A program made the translations under genes and the position numbers. The notes beneath the pieces are model-generated. The model was not told the DNA's origin and made no database searches. It saw only the letters and a list, made by a program, of their open reading frames with translations. DNA of 64,000 bases from Yoonia ponticola (GTDB lineage: Bacteria; Pseudomonadota; Alphaproteobacteria; Rhodobacterales; Rhodobacteraceae). The DNA lies in the NCBI RefSeq assembly GCF_014199395.1, contig NZ_JACIJM010000003.1:186001-250000 (forward strand), given 5' to 3'. Below are positions 25,379-33,595 of the stretch, piece by piece. Every line of letters begins with the position of its first letter. Positions within the stretch are counted from its first letter, which is position 1.

Positions 25379-26710
25379 ATGAATTTCAGCCGCGCAGACT
25401 TTCCTGATGATTTCGTTTTTGGGGCAGCGACAGCAGCCTACCAGATCGAAGGCCACGCATTTGGAGGTGCCGGATCGACCCATTGGGACACGTTTTCGGC
25501 GACCCAAGGCAATGTGTTTCAGGCGCATAATGGCGCCGTCGCCTGCGATCATTATCACCGCTACGAGGCCGATCTGGACCTGCTGAAAAACGCAAACATG
25601 GACGCCTACCGCTTTTCCACAAGCTGGGCACGGGTGCTGCCTGAAGGGCGCGGTGCGGTGAACCAAGAGGGCTTGGATTTCTATGACCGTCTGGTCGATG
25701 CTATCCTAGCGCGCGGTTTAAAGCCGTTTCAGACGTTGTATCATTGGGAAATGCCGTCTGCACTGGCTGATCTTGGCGGCTGGACAAACCGTGATGTGGC
25801 GCAGTGGTTTGGTGATTTTACCGACGTGATCATGGACCGGATCGGTGACCGTGTTGAGAGTGTCGCGACACTGAACGAGCCGTGGTGCGTCGCATATCTG
25901 TCGCATTACATCGGCCACCACGCGCCCGGTTTGCGCGACATTCGTGCCACCGCCCGCGCCATGCACCACGTCAATTTGGCCCATGGCGAAGCGATGACCC
26001 GTCTGCGTGCCCGAGGTCAGAAAAACTGTGGGATCGTGCTGAATTTTGACCGCTCTGTCCCTGCCGATGACACGCCTAGCGCACTGGCCGCGGCGGACGT
26101 TCAAGACGGAATTAACAATCGTTGGTTTATCGAGGCGATCAGCAAGGGCACCTATCCGGACGTTGTTTTACGAGGGTTCGAGGGACATATGCCAAAAGAC
26201 TGGCAGGACGATATGGCGCAGATTAGCCAACCCATCGACTGGCTAGGCGTGAACTACTACACGCGCCATCTGATCGCTGAAGACGCGGGTGAAATTTGGC
26301 CGGCGACGAAAAACATGGACGATCCGCTGCCGAAAACAGGCATGGATTGGGCCATTCACCCCGAAGGGTTACAGTATTTTCTGAACCGTCTCGCTGCGGG
26401 TTACGTCGGTGATTTGCCGCTATTTGTGACCGAAAACGGCATGGCTTGGGATGATGAAATCGTCGACGGGGCTGTGACTGATCCGGTCCGCGCGAATTTT
26501 GTGAACGACCATATTCTGGCGACAAAAGACGCGATTGCGCAGGGTGCGAATGTGAAAGGCTTTTTCTACTGGTCGCTTTTGGATAATTACGAATGGGCCT
26601 TTGGTTATGACAAACGATTTGGTATCGTTCACGTAGATTATGAAACACAGGTGCGCACGCCTAAGGCGTCGTATTACGCGCTGGCAACGGCATTGCGTCG
26701 CAACCGCTGA
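25379..26710 (+). CDS. Glycoside hydrolase family 1 beta-glucosidase
   Basis: This 443-residue TIM-barrel enzyme hydrolyses beta-glucosides such as cellobiose. The GH1 N-terminal signature DFVFGAATAAYQIEG is at 11-25. The acid/base Glu is E167 in TLNEPW and the nucleophile is E352 in FVTENGMAW. No signal peptide is present, so it acts in the cytoplasm on imported sugars. It is followed 10 bases later by glucokinase, which would phosphorylate the glucose it frees, giving a compact two-gene unit. No transporter is adjacent. Confidence 0.95.
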   Translation: MNFSRADFPDDFVFGAATAAYQIEGHAFGGAGSTHWDTFSATQGNVFQAHNGAVACDHYHRYEADLDLLKNANMDAYRFSTSWARVLPEGRGAVNQEGLDFYDRLVDAILARGLKPFQTLYHWEMPSALADLGGWTNRDVAQWFGDFTDVIMDRIGDRVESVATLNEPWCVAYLSHYIGHHAPGLRDIRATARAMHHVNLAHGEAMTRLRARGQKNCGIVLNFDRSVPADDTPSALAAADVQDGINNRWFIEAISKGTYPDVVLRGFEGHMPKDWQDDMAQISQPIDWLGVNYYTRHLIAEDAGEIWPATKNMDDPLPKTGMDWAIHPEGLQYFLNRLAAGYVGDLPLFVTENGMAWDDEIVDGAVTDPVRANFVNDHILATKDAIAQGANVKGFFYWSLLDNYEWAFGYDKRFGIVHVDYETQVRTPKASYYALATALRRNR

Positions 26711-26720
26711 GACCAGATTT

Positions 26721-27686
26721 ATGACACATCCCCAGAATAAATATGCGCTGGTCGCGGACATCGGTGGCACTAATACGCGGGTCGCGCTTGCTGACGGAAC
26801 GCGAGTTTTGCCTGATACAATCCGGCGTTACGCCAACATGAACTTCGCGGGCTTAGAGCCTGTTCTACAACAATACTTGTCTGAAGAAGGTGATGTCTCA
26901 CCCATCGCTACCTGCGTCGCAGTGGCTGGTCCGGTTCAAGACGGGCAAGCCACAATGACCAACCTCGATTGGACAATGACAAACGCATCGCTGGCCGCCG
27001 CGACCAATGCGCCGACCGTTGCGATTTTGAACGATCTGCAGGCGCAGGGCTATGCGGTCGGGCATATTGCTGACGAAAACCTTGATACGGTTCTTGCTGG
27101 TGATGCGGCGAAACCAACTGCTGCGAAATTGGTCGTTGGGGTTGGCACCGGATTTAACGCCGCCCCCGTGATCGAAAGCGCTGGGGGGCGTGTTGTCCCG
27201 CCATCCGAGAGCGGTCATGTGACACTGCCGACGCTAACGCCTGCCGACCGAGACCTCGCTGATTTTGTAGCGCAAATTCATGGATTTCCGTCTGTCGAAG
27301 ACGTCCTGTCCGGCCGCGGCATTGAGAATGTTTACCGCTTTGTCACCACGCAAAAAGGCACACCCGCACAAATGAAGGCGCAGGCGATCATGGCTGCTTG
27401 CGATGCGGGCGACGCCGATGCGTTGGAAACTGTGGCGATTTGTGTGCGCATGTTGGGGGCCGTCTGTGGCAATCTCGCGTTAACGCTATTGCCTTTTGGT
27501 GGGATCTATTTGGTTGGCGGCGTGTCGCGTGCCCTTGCTCCGCACCTCGAAAAATGCGGGTTTGCAGCGGCATTCCAAGACAAAGGCCGCTTTGCCGACT
27601 TCATGCAGCAGTTCCCGATTTCGGTGGTCACTGATGATTATGCCGCACTGACGGGGTGCGCCGCCTACCTCGCGCAGATCGATTAA
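26721..27686 (+). CDS. glk: Glucokinase
   Basis: This 321-residue enzyme is of the bacterial glucokinase group (ASKHA fold). The start MTHPQNKYALVADIGGTNTR carries the phosphate-1 loop DIGGTNTR, and the sugar-binding Asp lies in TVAILNDLQAQGYAV. A VGVGTGFNAAPV phosphate-2 loop and GGIYLVGGVSRAL adenosine loop follow. An upstream in-frame ATG at 26640 lies inside the beta-glucosidase gene, so I reject it. It provides glucose 6-phosphate for zwf, encoded 12 kb away. It converges with cckA, overlapping by 4 bases. Confidence 0.93.
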   Translation: MTHPQNKYALVADIGGTNTRVALADGTRVLPDTIRRYANMNFAGLEPVLQQYLSEEGDVSPIATCVAVAGPVQDGQATMTNLDWTMTNASLAAATNAPTVAILNDLQAQGYAVGHIADENLDTVLAGDAAKPTAAKLVVGVGTGFNAAPVIESAGGRVVPPSESGHVTLPTLTPADRDLADFVAQIHGFPSVEDVLSGRGIENVYRFVTTQKGTPAQMKAQAIMAACDAGDADALETVAICVRMLGAVCGNLALTLLPFGGIYLVGGVSRALAPHLEKCGFAAAFQDKGRFADFMQQFPISVVTDDYAALTGCAAYLAQID

Positions 27687-30031
27687 TGTAACTGCCCCTG
27701 CACGGTGTTTGTCAGGTCGTTTAACGAGAACGGCTTGGGCAAGAATACCGAGTTCGGTATTTTCGTTTTGCCGTCACCGAACGCATCCTCGGCGTAGCCG
27801 GACACAAAGACGACCTTTGTATCTGGCCTGTCGCACAAGGCTTCGCGCACCCACGTTGGGCCGTCCATGCCCGGCATAATCACGTCCGTCACAAAAATAT
27901 CGACGTTCAAATCGGGGTCGGACAGCAATTGCAACGCGGCCTCTGCGCATTCAGCTTCAATCACTGTGTAGCCACGCAAACGCAAGGCGCGAGACGCAAA
28001 GGCCCGCACGGGTGCCTCGTCTTCGACCAACAACACCACACCGTCCGACGTGGAGGTGAGCGGCGTCGGAACCGGCGCTTCGTGCTGGATGACATCGGCG
28101 ATGGGCGCGTCGTGATGCGGGAACAACAGCGAAAATTGCGTGCCGCGCCCGACTTCGCTATCCGCGAAAATGTAGCCGCCGGTTTGTTTGACGATGCCGT
28201 AGGCTGTCGACAGGCCGAGGCCGGTGCCTTCGCCGAGACGTTTGGTGGTGTAGAACGGCACGAAAATCTTGGACATGATTTCGGGCGGGATACCTTTGCC
28301 TTCGTCGTTGACCTTTACCACAACATATTCGCCCGCAGGAACAAAAGCCCGGTCGCGTTCGATTTCACGGTCAAGGACTAGGTTCTCGGTGACAACTTGG
28401 ATCGTGCCGCCGTCCGGCATGGCGTCTCGGGCGTTCACAACGAGGTTCATAAGCACCTGTTCTAGCTGCCTTTTGTCAGCTTTGATCGGTGACAGATTTG
28501 GATCGTGGTTCAGCGTGAGCGTTACTTTTTCCCCAACCAAGCGGTTCAGCAAATGCGTCAAGTCAGAGAGCGTATCGCGCAGATCAACGATCTCTGGTTG
28601 CAGGTTTTGCTTGCGTGAAAACGCGAGTAATTGCCCGACGAGGCTGGCCGCCCGGTTCGCATTTTGATGAATTTGTAGCAGGTCGCTATAATCTTGATCG
28701 CCTTGGTCATGGCGCAGCAACAACAGGTCGCAATGCCCTGATATTGCTGTCAAAAGGTTGTTAAAGTCATGAGCCACGCCACCTGCCAACTGGCCAATTG
28801 CATGCATTTTCTGGCTTTGAACGAACTGTGCTTCGAGCGATTTTAACTCGGTTACATCGTTCAAAACAGCGATCAAATGCGCGTCACTATCAACGCCGAC
28901 TGCGTTCAAGGTCACTTGAATCACGTGGTCTTGGCGGTCACCTTTTCCTTGCAAGAATTGCGATGCTTGCCCTTCTTTGTTCTCGAATATTTCCTTGACC
29001 CAATCGTCTACCGGACGGCCAAGTCCGTCGAGCATTTCCGTCATGCGGCGGTTTTCGGTGGATTGCACGCCCAACAACATCCGTGCCTCGCGGTTGGATT
29101 CAATAATATCGCCTTTGCCGGACACTTTCATAAGCGGTACGGGCAGGTCTTCGATCACGCTCCAGCTGGTGGATACTTGTTTCTCCGTCCACGGCCCGAT
29201 GGTGGTGGGTGGCGCTGGTAGCGCGTAGATTTCGCGGCGACCGGGTCCGCCTGACACCTCGGCCACGATGCAATCGACGGTGCCGCCGGTGGTTTTTATG
29301 CGGTGCAGATCGCCGGACCGGATCGGATCAGGCCCAAAAACATCTGAAACGGCGCGAGGTCTGCATTCCAATAGCCGTCGAAATGCGTCGTTCAAAAACA
29401 GGATTGCCCCGCTTTTTCCCACGGTCATCATCGGCAAGGATAGCGTCGCGGATGCCCGTTCTGTTTTCGCGCTGGCCTGTGCAAGGTCATCAAAGCGCCA
29501 CAAGAACATCATTGGGCCGACGCGCGCCACGGACAGGCGGTATTGCCCTGCGCGCGTGACGATATCCTCGCGGGCAGAGGCCATCGTGATCGCCCGTGAT
29601 TGCAAGCGGTACAGCACCGCATCGGGGTTCGCGATCACCGTGGCGAGCCGCGCCGCCAAAGATTCATCTGATGTCTCGGTAAATCGTTCGTTTGCCGCGT
29701 CGTTCGCGTAGGCGATCACGCCGTCAACATCGGTCAGAAACGCGGGGTTCAGGTCGTTGCTGACCAGTAATGGCACGGCTTCGCTAAGTAGTCGCTGCCG
29801 TAAAATCACCCGTCGCCGCGCCAATATGCCCATGACCGCCAAAATGCCCAGTGTGATCGCGGACACCATGAGGCCAAGTTCCACGACAAGGTCCGGCACC
29901 ATGAATGATGCCCCCAGCAGAAACGGGATCGGGAACGCCAAAAGGACGGGATGCATCGCATGCGCCCAAAAGCTTTCAAACCCTAAAGGTCGCTTTGCAT
30001 TCGCTTTCACGCGGATCCCTTCCCGATTCAA
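27683..30031 (-). CDS. cckA: CckA hybrid histidine kinase
   Basis: This 782-residue kinase feeds the CckA-ChpT-CtrA phosphorelay that controls cell-cycle and, in Roseobacters, motility and differentiation genes. Two N-terminal transmembrane helices (about 30-75) are followed by PAS-like domains. The H box AGGVAHDFNNLLTAISGH has its His near residue 420, the HATPase has N, G1 (NDEGKGIPPEIM) and GLGLSTAYGIV boxes, and the C-terminal receiver has its Asp near 712 in DIFVTDVIMPGMDGP. The layout matches alphaproteobacterial CckA. A perfect TTAA-N7-TTAA CtrA box at 30058-30072 suggests feedback control by its own output. Confidence 0.93.
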   Translation of the reverse strand: MNREGIRVKANAKRPLGFESFWAHAMHPVLLAFPIPFLLGASFMVPDLVVELGLMVSAITLGILAVMGILARRRVILRQRLLSEAVPLLVSNDLNPAFLTDVDGVIAYANDAANERFTETSDESLAARLATVIANPDAVLYRLQSRAITMASAREDIVTRAGQYRLSVARVGPMMFLWRFDDLAQASAKTERASATLSLPMMTVGKSGAILFLNDAFRRLLECRPRAVSDVFGPDPIRSGDLHRIKTTGGTVDCIVAEVSGGPGRREIYALPAPPTTIGPWTEKQVSTSWSVIEDLPVPLMKVSGKGDIIESNREARMLLGVQSTENRRMTEMLDGLGRPVDDWVKEIFENKEGQASQFLQGKGDRQDHVIQVTLNAVGVDSDAHLIAVLNDVTELKSLEAQFVQSQKMHAIGQLAGGVAHDFNNLLTAISGHCDLLLLRHDQGDQDYSDLLQIHQNANRAASLVGQLLAFSRKQNLQPEIVDLRDTLSDLTHLLNRLVGEKVTLTLNHDPNLSPIKADKRQLEQVLMNLVVNARDAMPDGGTIQVVTENLVLDREIERDRAFVPAGEYVVVKVNDEGKGIPPEIMSKIFVPFYTTKRLGEGTGLGLSTAYGIVKQTGGYIFADSEVGRGTQFSLLFPHHDAPIADVIQHEAPVPTPLTSTSDGVVLLVEDEAPVRAFASRALRLRGYTVIEAECAEAALQLLSDPDLNVDIFVTDVIMPGMDGPTWVREALCDRPDTKVVFVSGYAEDAFGDGKTKIPNSVFLPKPFSLNDLTNTVQGQLH

Positions 30032-30057
30032 TCTTCTACCTAAGTATCAAATCCAAA

Positions 30058-30072
30058 TTAACTAAAAGTTAA
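30058..30072. promoter_or_regulatory. CtrA-binding motif upstream of cckA
   Basis: The sequence reads TTAA, 7 bases (CTAAAAG), TTAA, the full consensus CtrA site known from Caulobacter and Rhodobacterales. It lies 27 bases upstream of the cckA start codon, in the 63-base gap after rsmB. The match is exact on the eight defined bases; binding is inferred. Confidence 0.65.
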
Positions 30073-30094
30073 CAGAAGTTTTCGCGTCCCGCTT

Positions 30095-31264
30095 CTACTC
30101 AGATTTAGTGAGTTTACACAGGAAAAAGCCATCAGAGGTGTCGCTTGGCATTAATCGCAACGTATCTTGCGCGGTCCATTCGGGGTGATTTTCGGTGAAC
30201 CGCGTGATAACCGCGTCGTTCTCGTTTGAGAACACCGAACAGGTCATATAATAAAGCGTGCCGCCGGATTTAACGTAGCTTGCAGCGTCTACAATAACGT
30301 CGCCTTGTAGTGCGTTGAAGTTGCTTAATTTATCTGGCGTGAATGACCACTTTTCTTCGGGATTACGCCGCCATGTGCCGCTACCACTACACGGTGCGTC
30401 AGCGATCACGACGTCATAGATTGCCGTCAGCACATCAGTCGTCACAACGTCGATTTGCACGCCTGCGCGGTCTGCACGGGGTTCGATATCTTTGGTCCGC
30501 TGTGTCGCCACGTCGTGTGCCGTCACGGCACAGTCGAATTGGTCGGCAATCGCGAGCGCCTTGCCGCCGCCGCCTGCACAATAATCCAGCACCTGTGCCC
30601 CTTTTGGCACGTCCATCGTTGCGACCGCGATCTGCGATGCCGCGTCTTGGACTTCGACCAAGCCGCTCTCGAAGGCCTCGGACAGCTTCACGCGGCGCGG
30701 GTTTGTGTCGACCTGCAAGCAGCCTTCCTGCGTGGGGTGTGCGCTGACGGTGATGTTCTCGGCGGCGAGTGCGGCAATCGCGTCCTTCACCGTCCCGCGC
30801 CGTTGGTTTACCCGCAGATAAAGCGGTGCGCGGTGGCGTAATGTTTCGGCGGCTGCGACCGCTGCGTCGCCCAGATCGGCTTGCCACACGGGCCAGAGCC
30901 ATGCGGGTAGATCAACCGCGTCATGGTCCGAAATTCCGGGGTTTGCGGCCAGATGTGCCGCCTCGTCGTCGGTCAATGCGTCTGGCGCGTGACCTTCACC
31001 TGTGAACATCGCTGCAGGATCGCCGCCGTCGCTGGCAAACAAACCGATCATCAAGCCGCGTCCCGTCAAGCTACCGCCAAGTGCCGCACATGATCCGCGT
31101 TTGCGCAGCGCATCAAACACCAGATCGCGCAGTGCCGCGCGGTCTTTGGAGCCTGCAAAGCGGCTGTTGCGCCCCCAATCGGACAAAGCTTTTTCAGCCG
31201 TCCGGTCTGTCAGGATATCATCAAGTACGGTGATCGCAGCAGCGACGCGAGCGGCAGGTGTCAT
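30095..31264 (-). CDS. RsmB-like rRNA cytosine-5 methyltransferase
   Basis: This 389-residue protein has an N-terminal helical NusB-like region (about 1-130) and a C-terminal SAM-dependent RNA m5C methyltransferase (RsmB/NOP2 family). The SAM loop is VLDYCAGGGGKALA, the conserved PCSGSGTWRRNPE follows, and the catalytic Cys sits in YMTCSVFSNEND. RsmB of E. coli modifies C967 of 16S rRNA; that target is likely but not proven for this shorter homologue. It lies between guaB and cckA on one strand, with a strong hairpin upstream at 31291-31324. Confidence 0.88.
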   Translation of the reverse strand: MTPAARVAAAITVLDDILTDRTAEKALSDWGRNSRFAGSKDRAALRDLVFDALRKRGSCAALGGSLTGRGLMIGLFASDGGDPAAMFTGEGHAPDALTDDEAAHLAANPGISDHDAVDLPAWLWPVWQADLGDAAVAAAETLRHRAPLYLRVNQRRGTVKDAIAALAAENITVSAHPTQEGCLQVDTNPRRVKLSEAFESGLVEVQDAASQIAVATMDVPKGAQVLDYCAGGGGKALAIADQFDCAVTAHDVATQRTKDIEPRADRAGVQIDVVTTDVLTAIYDVVIADAPCSGSGTWRRNPEEKWSFTPDKLSNFNALQGDVIVDAASYVKSGGTLYYMTCSVFSNENDAVITRFTENHPEWTAQDTLRLMPSDTSDGFFLCKLTKSE

Positions 31265-31290
31265 CGGGTATCCGTTATATTATGTGGGTG

Positions 31291-31324
31291 ATATCCACGC
31301 CAAACATGTGTTTAGCGTGGATAT
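31291..31324 (-). terminator. Long hairpin between guaB and rsmB
   Basis: ATATCCACGC (31291-31300) pairs perfectly with GCGTGGATAT (31315-31324). After one mismatch, AAAC pairs with GTTT around a 4-base loop, giving a stem of about 14 pairs. It starts 11 bases after the guaB stop. No T run follows, so it may act as an attenuator or mRNA 3' protector rather than a full terminator. Confidence 0.5.
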
Positions 31325-31334
31325 GCGTCTGGAC

Positions 31335-32885
<1,551 letters not shown>

Positions 32886-32905
32886 TTACTGACCATCAAC
32901 GCCGG

Positions 32906-33595
32906 ATGAACGCAAACGAACCAGTGAAACCAGACGTGAAACAGCGCCCCTCGTGGCGGCGTGCGCTCTGCTGGGTTGCTGGATTCGGGCTATGTGTTTT
33001 TGTGCTACATCTGATTTTGAACTGGTCGATGGATTTTGTCAGCGGGATGAACGCGATGTCCGGGTCCGGGGCGATGATCGGGCTGATCGCGGTGAGTTTG
33101 GTGATTTACGCCTTGCTGATTGCGACACCGTTTATGCCGGGGATTGAGGTCGGTATCGCGCTGTTGATGCTCAAAGGCGCATCGGTGGCCCCGTTTGTTT
33201 ATCTCGCGACAGTCGTGGGGCTGATGGTGGCTTATGTGATCGGGCAGACAATTCCGCTGGCGTGGTTGCATAAGGTCTTCCGCGATTTGAGATTGAAAAA
33301 AGCCTGCGCATTTATTGACCGGATCGAGACAACGCCCCCTGCCGAACGGCAAGCCGCCCAACGTGCCTTGCTGCCTGCGTGGCTGGCAAAGCTGACGATT
33401 GACTACCGCTATGCGACGATTGGGCTGCTGCTGAACGTGCCCGGCACGTTTGCGATTGGCGGCGGTGGCGGCATCCTGATGGCCGCAGGTCTGTCGCGCC
33501 TGTTCAGTGGCTGGGCGATCTTCGTGACGCTGCTGGTGGCCACCCTGCCCGTCCCGCTGGTGGTTTGGGTGATGGGTGTGTCGGTGCTGGGTTAA
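32906..33595 (+). CDS. Membrane protein of unknown function, possibly VTT (TVP38/DedA)-like
   Basis: This 229-residue protein has about five to six hydrophobic segments after a basic N-terminus (KPDVKQRPSWRRAL). A stretch with a P-G-x-E motif (ATPFMPGIEVGIALLMLKGA) and following glycines resembles the VTT/SNARE-associated fold of TVP38 and DedA proteins, and GTFAIGGGGGILMAAGLSRL resembles a second half-motif. I am not certain of the family. It is a single gene, divergent from guaB and 140 bases before the corrinoid reactivator gene. Confidence 0.7.
   Translation: MNANEPVKPDVKQRPSWRRALCWVAGFGLCVFVLHLILNWSMDFVSGMNAMSGSGAMIGLIAVSLVIYALLIATPFMPGIEVGIALLMLKGASVAPFVYLATVVGLMVAYVIGQTIPLAWLHKVFRDLRLKKACAFIDRIETTPPAERQAAQRALLPAWLAKLTIDYRYATIGLLLNVPGTFAIGGGGGILMAAGLSRLFSGWAIFVTLLVATLPVPLVVWVMGVSVLG

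Follow-up and report, generated by a model that had tools for sequence, protein, structure and literature searches.

The motif that stands before cckA in the window analysed here, a 64-kb stretch of the Yoonia ponticola genome, is very probably a real and conserved CtrA binding site, as judged from the comparison of related upstream regions. The bases TTAACTAAAAGTTAA at 30058-30072 form an exact TTAA-N7-TTAA, in which the two TTAA half-sites lie exactly 7 bp apart as in a full CtrA site, and they are the sole exact match in the window; the sequence and coordinates given by the first-pass annotation are confirmed. Because the motif is self-complementary, its strand carries no meaning, and the C that completes the fuller consensus TTAA-N7-TTAAC appears at this box only when it is read away from cckA. 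The features on which the argument turns are collected in Table 1.

Table 1. Features at and around the CtrA box, in positions of the 64-kb window
Feature	Position	Strand	Basis and remarks
Full CtrA box TTAA-N7-TTAA, candidate	30058..30072	(-), strand of cckA	Exact match and conservation
cckA, hybrid histidine kinase	27683..30010	(-)	Pfam PAS, HisKA, HATPase_c, receiver
cckA start codon GTG, likely	30008..30010	(-)	47 nt past box, AAGGGA before it, conserved spacing
cckA transcription start, predicted	30034..30035	(-)	23-24 nt past box end, R. sphaeroides distance rule
GANTC (GATTC) in predicted cckA leader, candidate CcrM methylation site	30025..30029	.	Sequence match
rsmB, 16S rRNA methyltransferase	30095..31264	(-)	Best NCBIfam hits are rsmB models, with scores under cut-off; upstream, co-directional
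guaB, IMP dehydrogenase	31335..32855	(-)	TIGR01302 above cut-off; same direction, read-through from it into rsmB-cckA possible

Conservation was assessed in 110 loci, made up of the best 80 of 485 named loci and 30 other loci including the window's own. The rsmB-cckA intergenic region was scanned in each; some species occur in both sets, and removal of identical regions left 101 distinct ones. An exact TTAA-N7-TTAA is present in 94 of the 110 loci and in 87 of the 101 distinct regions, while TTAA pairs spaced by N6 or N8 occur in none of the 101, TTAA pairs at other spacings in at most 7, and other half-site words in at most 11. The 94 box sites contain 73 different spacers, and therefore the half-sites are held while the spacer is free. 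Elsewhere in the same loci, 856,458 bases contain only 7 other TTAA-N7-TTAA sites. Four extra relatives carry an exact site in three cases and a site with one mismatch in the other. The search was also extended to other families of the class, where 24 genomes gave 16 cckA-like loci (one without an alignment, leaving 15); only one of these 15 has a full site close to the start of cckA, and there it is located inside the ORF. The pattern resembles the trace that a regulator recognizing two half-sites would leave, within the cckA of the Rhodobacteraceae type.

Fourteen distinct regions are without the exact box. Eight of these retain a site with one mismatch and four (L006, L010, L013, and L035) have at least two mismatches, while the remaining two are uninformative, since L017 ends at a contig edge and L102 is anchored inside the gene. 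A coupling between loss of the box and loss of ctrA finds no support, as ctrA is still present in all 11 tested genomes whose locus is without the exact box; thus, the box can decay while CtrA stays. One relative (G021) has two cckA-like loci in a single assembly (L096 and L206), one of them with internal stops, and is possibly a mixed bin.

The genome from which the window comes (G000) contains one CtrA match, 75% identical to a typed Caulobacter query, and the two proteins are identical over query residues 148-201, which lie in the DNA-binding half. A cognate CtrA with a conserved DNA-binding domain, as expected for a promoter with a full site, is present in the genome. The promoter of its own ctrA gene has neither a strict full site nor a strict half-site, and features TTAACTAT, one base off a half-site; across 30 ctrA loci, a strict half-site is found within 300 nt in 24 and a full site in 5. 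The full sites of this genome were inspected in 52 of 55 cases (51 across 47 stretches, plus the cckA site), with crude ORF calls. One of them, at position 1194 of L171 (C6:183190-185590), is an exact TTAA-N7-TTAA directly before an ORF that by eye resembles clpX; in Caulobacter, CtrA is degraded by ClpXP. At the end of contig C13 (L187, positions 1194-1230), three exact TTAA-N7-TTAA overlap in tandem and a fourth lies 133 nt further on, with no ORF assigned to them.

The protein encoded after the box carries PAS and receiver domains as well as HisKA and HATPase_c. Its top two NCBIfam matches are the CckA models, at 518.8 and 426.6 bits against a curated cut-off of 1000; since these scores fall below the cut-offs of models named for Brucella and Caulobacter proteins, its orthology to CckA rests on best hits and synteny. 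A plus-strand ORF (26640-27686) beyond the end of cckA converges on it, and no divergent gene starts at the box, which makes cckA the obvious target. On the upstream side, rsmB lies within 300 nt of cckA in 100 of the 110 loci. A simple scan of the minus strand from 29950 to 33000 gave no terminator-like site, and guaB and rsmB are co-directional with cckA, so that read-through into cckA is possible.

The position of the box relative to cckA depends on which start codon is used. Of the 94 loci with a box, 87 offer a start codon preceded by a loose SD match, at 41-55 nt past the box in 79 of the 87; the start scoring favoured 30-70 nt from the box, and the evidence is therefore the tightness inside that range rather than the range itself. 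The longest cckA ORF begins at TTG 30031, and the conserved spacing together with an SD-like stretch favours GTG 30010 as the likelier start. The earlier description of a 63-base gap between rsmB and cckA accordingly holds for the longest ORF (30032-30094), whereas with GTG 30010 the gap is 84 bases, and the distance from the box start to this codon is 62 nt. In R. sphaeroides, CtrA promoters are reported to start transcription 23 or 24 nt past the end of the site (PMC6180460). By this rule, the 5′ base of the box would lie at -37 or -38 of the predicted cckA start, with a leader of about 25 nt. In Caulobacter, activated promoters are marked by full CtrA motifs whose 5′ base is near -35, and repressing half-sites sit over the -10 (PMC4287350). 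The transcription start is itself a prediction from distance, because no sigma-70 match was found at the expected place before cckA and a small motif search among the box loci gave no convincing shared -10 element.

It is probable, on the basis of this geometry and conservation, that the box serves as operator in a CtrA-dependent promoter belonging to cckA, which would place a positive transcriptional loop on the kinase; by analogy, activation appears to be the likelier effect of CtrA on this gene. Phosphorylated CtrA would occupy both TTAA half-sites, overlapping the -35 region of the cckA promoter, and help RNA polymerase to start some 23-24 nt downstream of the box, giving an approximately 25-nt leader before GTG 30010. 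The additional CckA would then feed the CckA-ChpT-CtrA relay and so close the loop. Read-through from guaB-rsmB may supply a CtrA-independent floor for cckA, in which case the loop would act as a boost rather than as a switch.

Expression tests in relatives give a mixed picture. In Ruegeria sp. KLH11, supplying ctrA left cckA-lacZ unaltered, although its full site lies as far from cckA as the box does here (Zan 2013, PMC3692519). In a ctrA mutant of R. capsulatus, a species of which one strain (locus L028) has the box before cckA, the cckA transcript is unchanged and the CckA protein is lower (cited in Zan 2013, PMC3692519). In stationary-phase D. shibae, cckA is lower in mutants of ctrA and of chpT; in exponential phase it is unaffected by the lack of ctrA, and deletion of cckA leaves ctrA unchanged (Wang 2014, PMC4046655). 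The wide conservation of the site argues that it matters despite these weak or absent effects in laboratory tests, and read-through from rsmB as well as growth phase provide concrete reasons why such tests could have missed an effect of CtrA.

These mixed data also fit a reading in which CtrA binds the box and represses cckA, or in which its effect is mostly neutral because read-through or other regulators dominate. The cckA promoter of R. capsulatus is reportedly under LexA control (PMC6473078), and the close placement of rsmB upstream in 100 of 110 loci is favourable to a contribution from read-through. However, full motifs near -35 go with activation in Caulobacter, where repression goes with half-sites over the -10 (PMC4287350), and cckA of D. 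shibae fell rather than rose without ctrA in stationary phase (PMC4046655), so that repression or neutrality is considered somewhat unlikely.

The two remaining readings deny that the motif is a CtrA site at all. The box could be a hairpin or terminator of rsmB, as it has six-base complementary arms in this genome, TTAACT and AGTTAA, that can pair around TTT. Yet 30040-30095 folds with unremarkable energy (z 0.45, with 126 of 200 shuffles folding equally well or better), no T run follows the arms, and among 77 dereplicated relatives complementarity at the three mirrored positions of the spacer amounts to 17, 29, and 25 cases (about 22, 38, and 32%, where chance would give about 25%). Together with the terminator scan, these results make a hairpin or terminator very improbable. 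A chance match in an AT-rich gap would agree with the motif counts, which alone do not separate the box from chance. The single exact match in the window compares with 0.22 expected and is equalled or exceeded in 19 of 100 shuffles, the 11 one-mismatch sites compare with 7.4 expected (reached in 13 of 100 shuffles), and the genome-wide count of 55 sites equals that of the reversed control pattern, at 53. What sets the box apart is that 87 of 101 distinct regions upstream of cckA have it in the same position, which renders a chance origin extremely improbable.

Between the box and the start codon, the predicted cckA leader contains a GANTC. In 33 of the 94 loci with a box, and in 29 of 77 after dereplication, a GANTC begins 38-50 nt past the box start; 15 control palindromes reach 0-6 of 77 at the same place. 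Mapped on a CckA tree of 86 rows (a quick tree with long-branch warnings, from which one short protein and seven duplicate windows were left out), presence of the GANTC requires 9 changes against 26.5 in shuffles. It is found in 31 of 55 rows of another clade of relatives and in 2 of the 31 rows of the window's own clade, these two being the window genome and a neighbour with a 99% identical CckA; the GANTC before cckA in this genome may be due to chance. The genome has GcrA as well as a RAMA-domain protein that is a candidate CcrM, the domain having matched only Caulobacter among 14 control genomes. If the reading as a CcrM motif were true, which is unlikely, the phosphorelay would again be tied to replication, in a group for which this relay has been described as isolated from CcrM and GcrA. 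In the excerpts of the literature that were searched, no GANTC with a constant position in the cckA leader of one clade was found, although GANTC sites upstream of cell-cycle genes were counted in a supplement of Brilli 2010 (PMC2877005).

The link between CtrA and cckA has already been described in related marine bacteria of the Rhodobacterales, and the finding in Y. ponticola is sound and mostly ordinary. CtrA was predicted to control cckA and divL in cluster B Rhodobacterales, an arrangement termed feedback (Brilli 2010, PMC2877005), a CtrA site at cckA and feedback on the kinase were described for D. shibae (Wang 2014, PMC4046655), and a CtrA-cckA feedback loop was described in words for Dinoroseobacter (Koppenhofer 2019, PMC6473078) and repeated in a 2020 paper (PMC7232146); the excerpts of PMC12363192 and PMC11655674 contain no statement on CtrA acting on cckA. 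The first-pass annotation had proposed that CtrA controls its own activator through the box, an idea that is reasonable and not new, since it has been published (Brilli 2010; Zan 2013; Wang 2014; Koppenhofer 2019). The identity of the site and a possible action of CtrA on cckA are well supported by conservation, position, and the CtrA of this genome, whereas the proposed regulation is condition-dependent or absent in relatives. What the present comparison of sequences adds is the exact conservation, spacing specificity, and position of the box across 101 distinct regions.

Among the characterized systems, Ruegeria sp. KLH11 shares the geometry of Y. ponticola, as its full CtrA site lies 62 bp before the cckA start (Zan 2013, PMC3692519), the same distance as from the box start to GTG 30010. 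The two differ in that a half-site overlaps the full site of KLH11, 51 bp upstream, where the corresponding bases in Y. ponticola (TTAATTTG) fail to match TTAACCAT, and the test by ctrA supply in KLH11 was negative. A CtrA site in the cckA promoter, interpreted as direct feedback on the kinase, is likewise predicted for the cluster B Rhodobacterales, which lack DivJ, PleC, and DivK, and for D. shibae (Brilli 2010; Wang 2014; Koppenhofer 2019), although these are other species than Y. ponticola. The box resembles those of the ctrA P2 promoter and other full-site CtrA promoters of Caulobacter crescentus (PMC4287350); ctrA P2 has TTAA-N7-TTAA as well, with the 5′ base at -39 there and at -37 or -38 of the predicted start here, but the target of P2 is ctrA itself, whereas in Y. 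ponticola it is the kinase gene.
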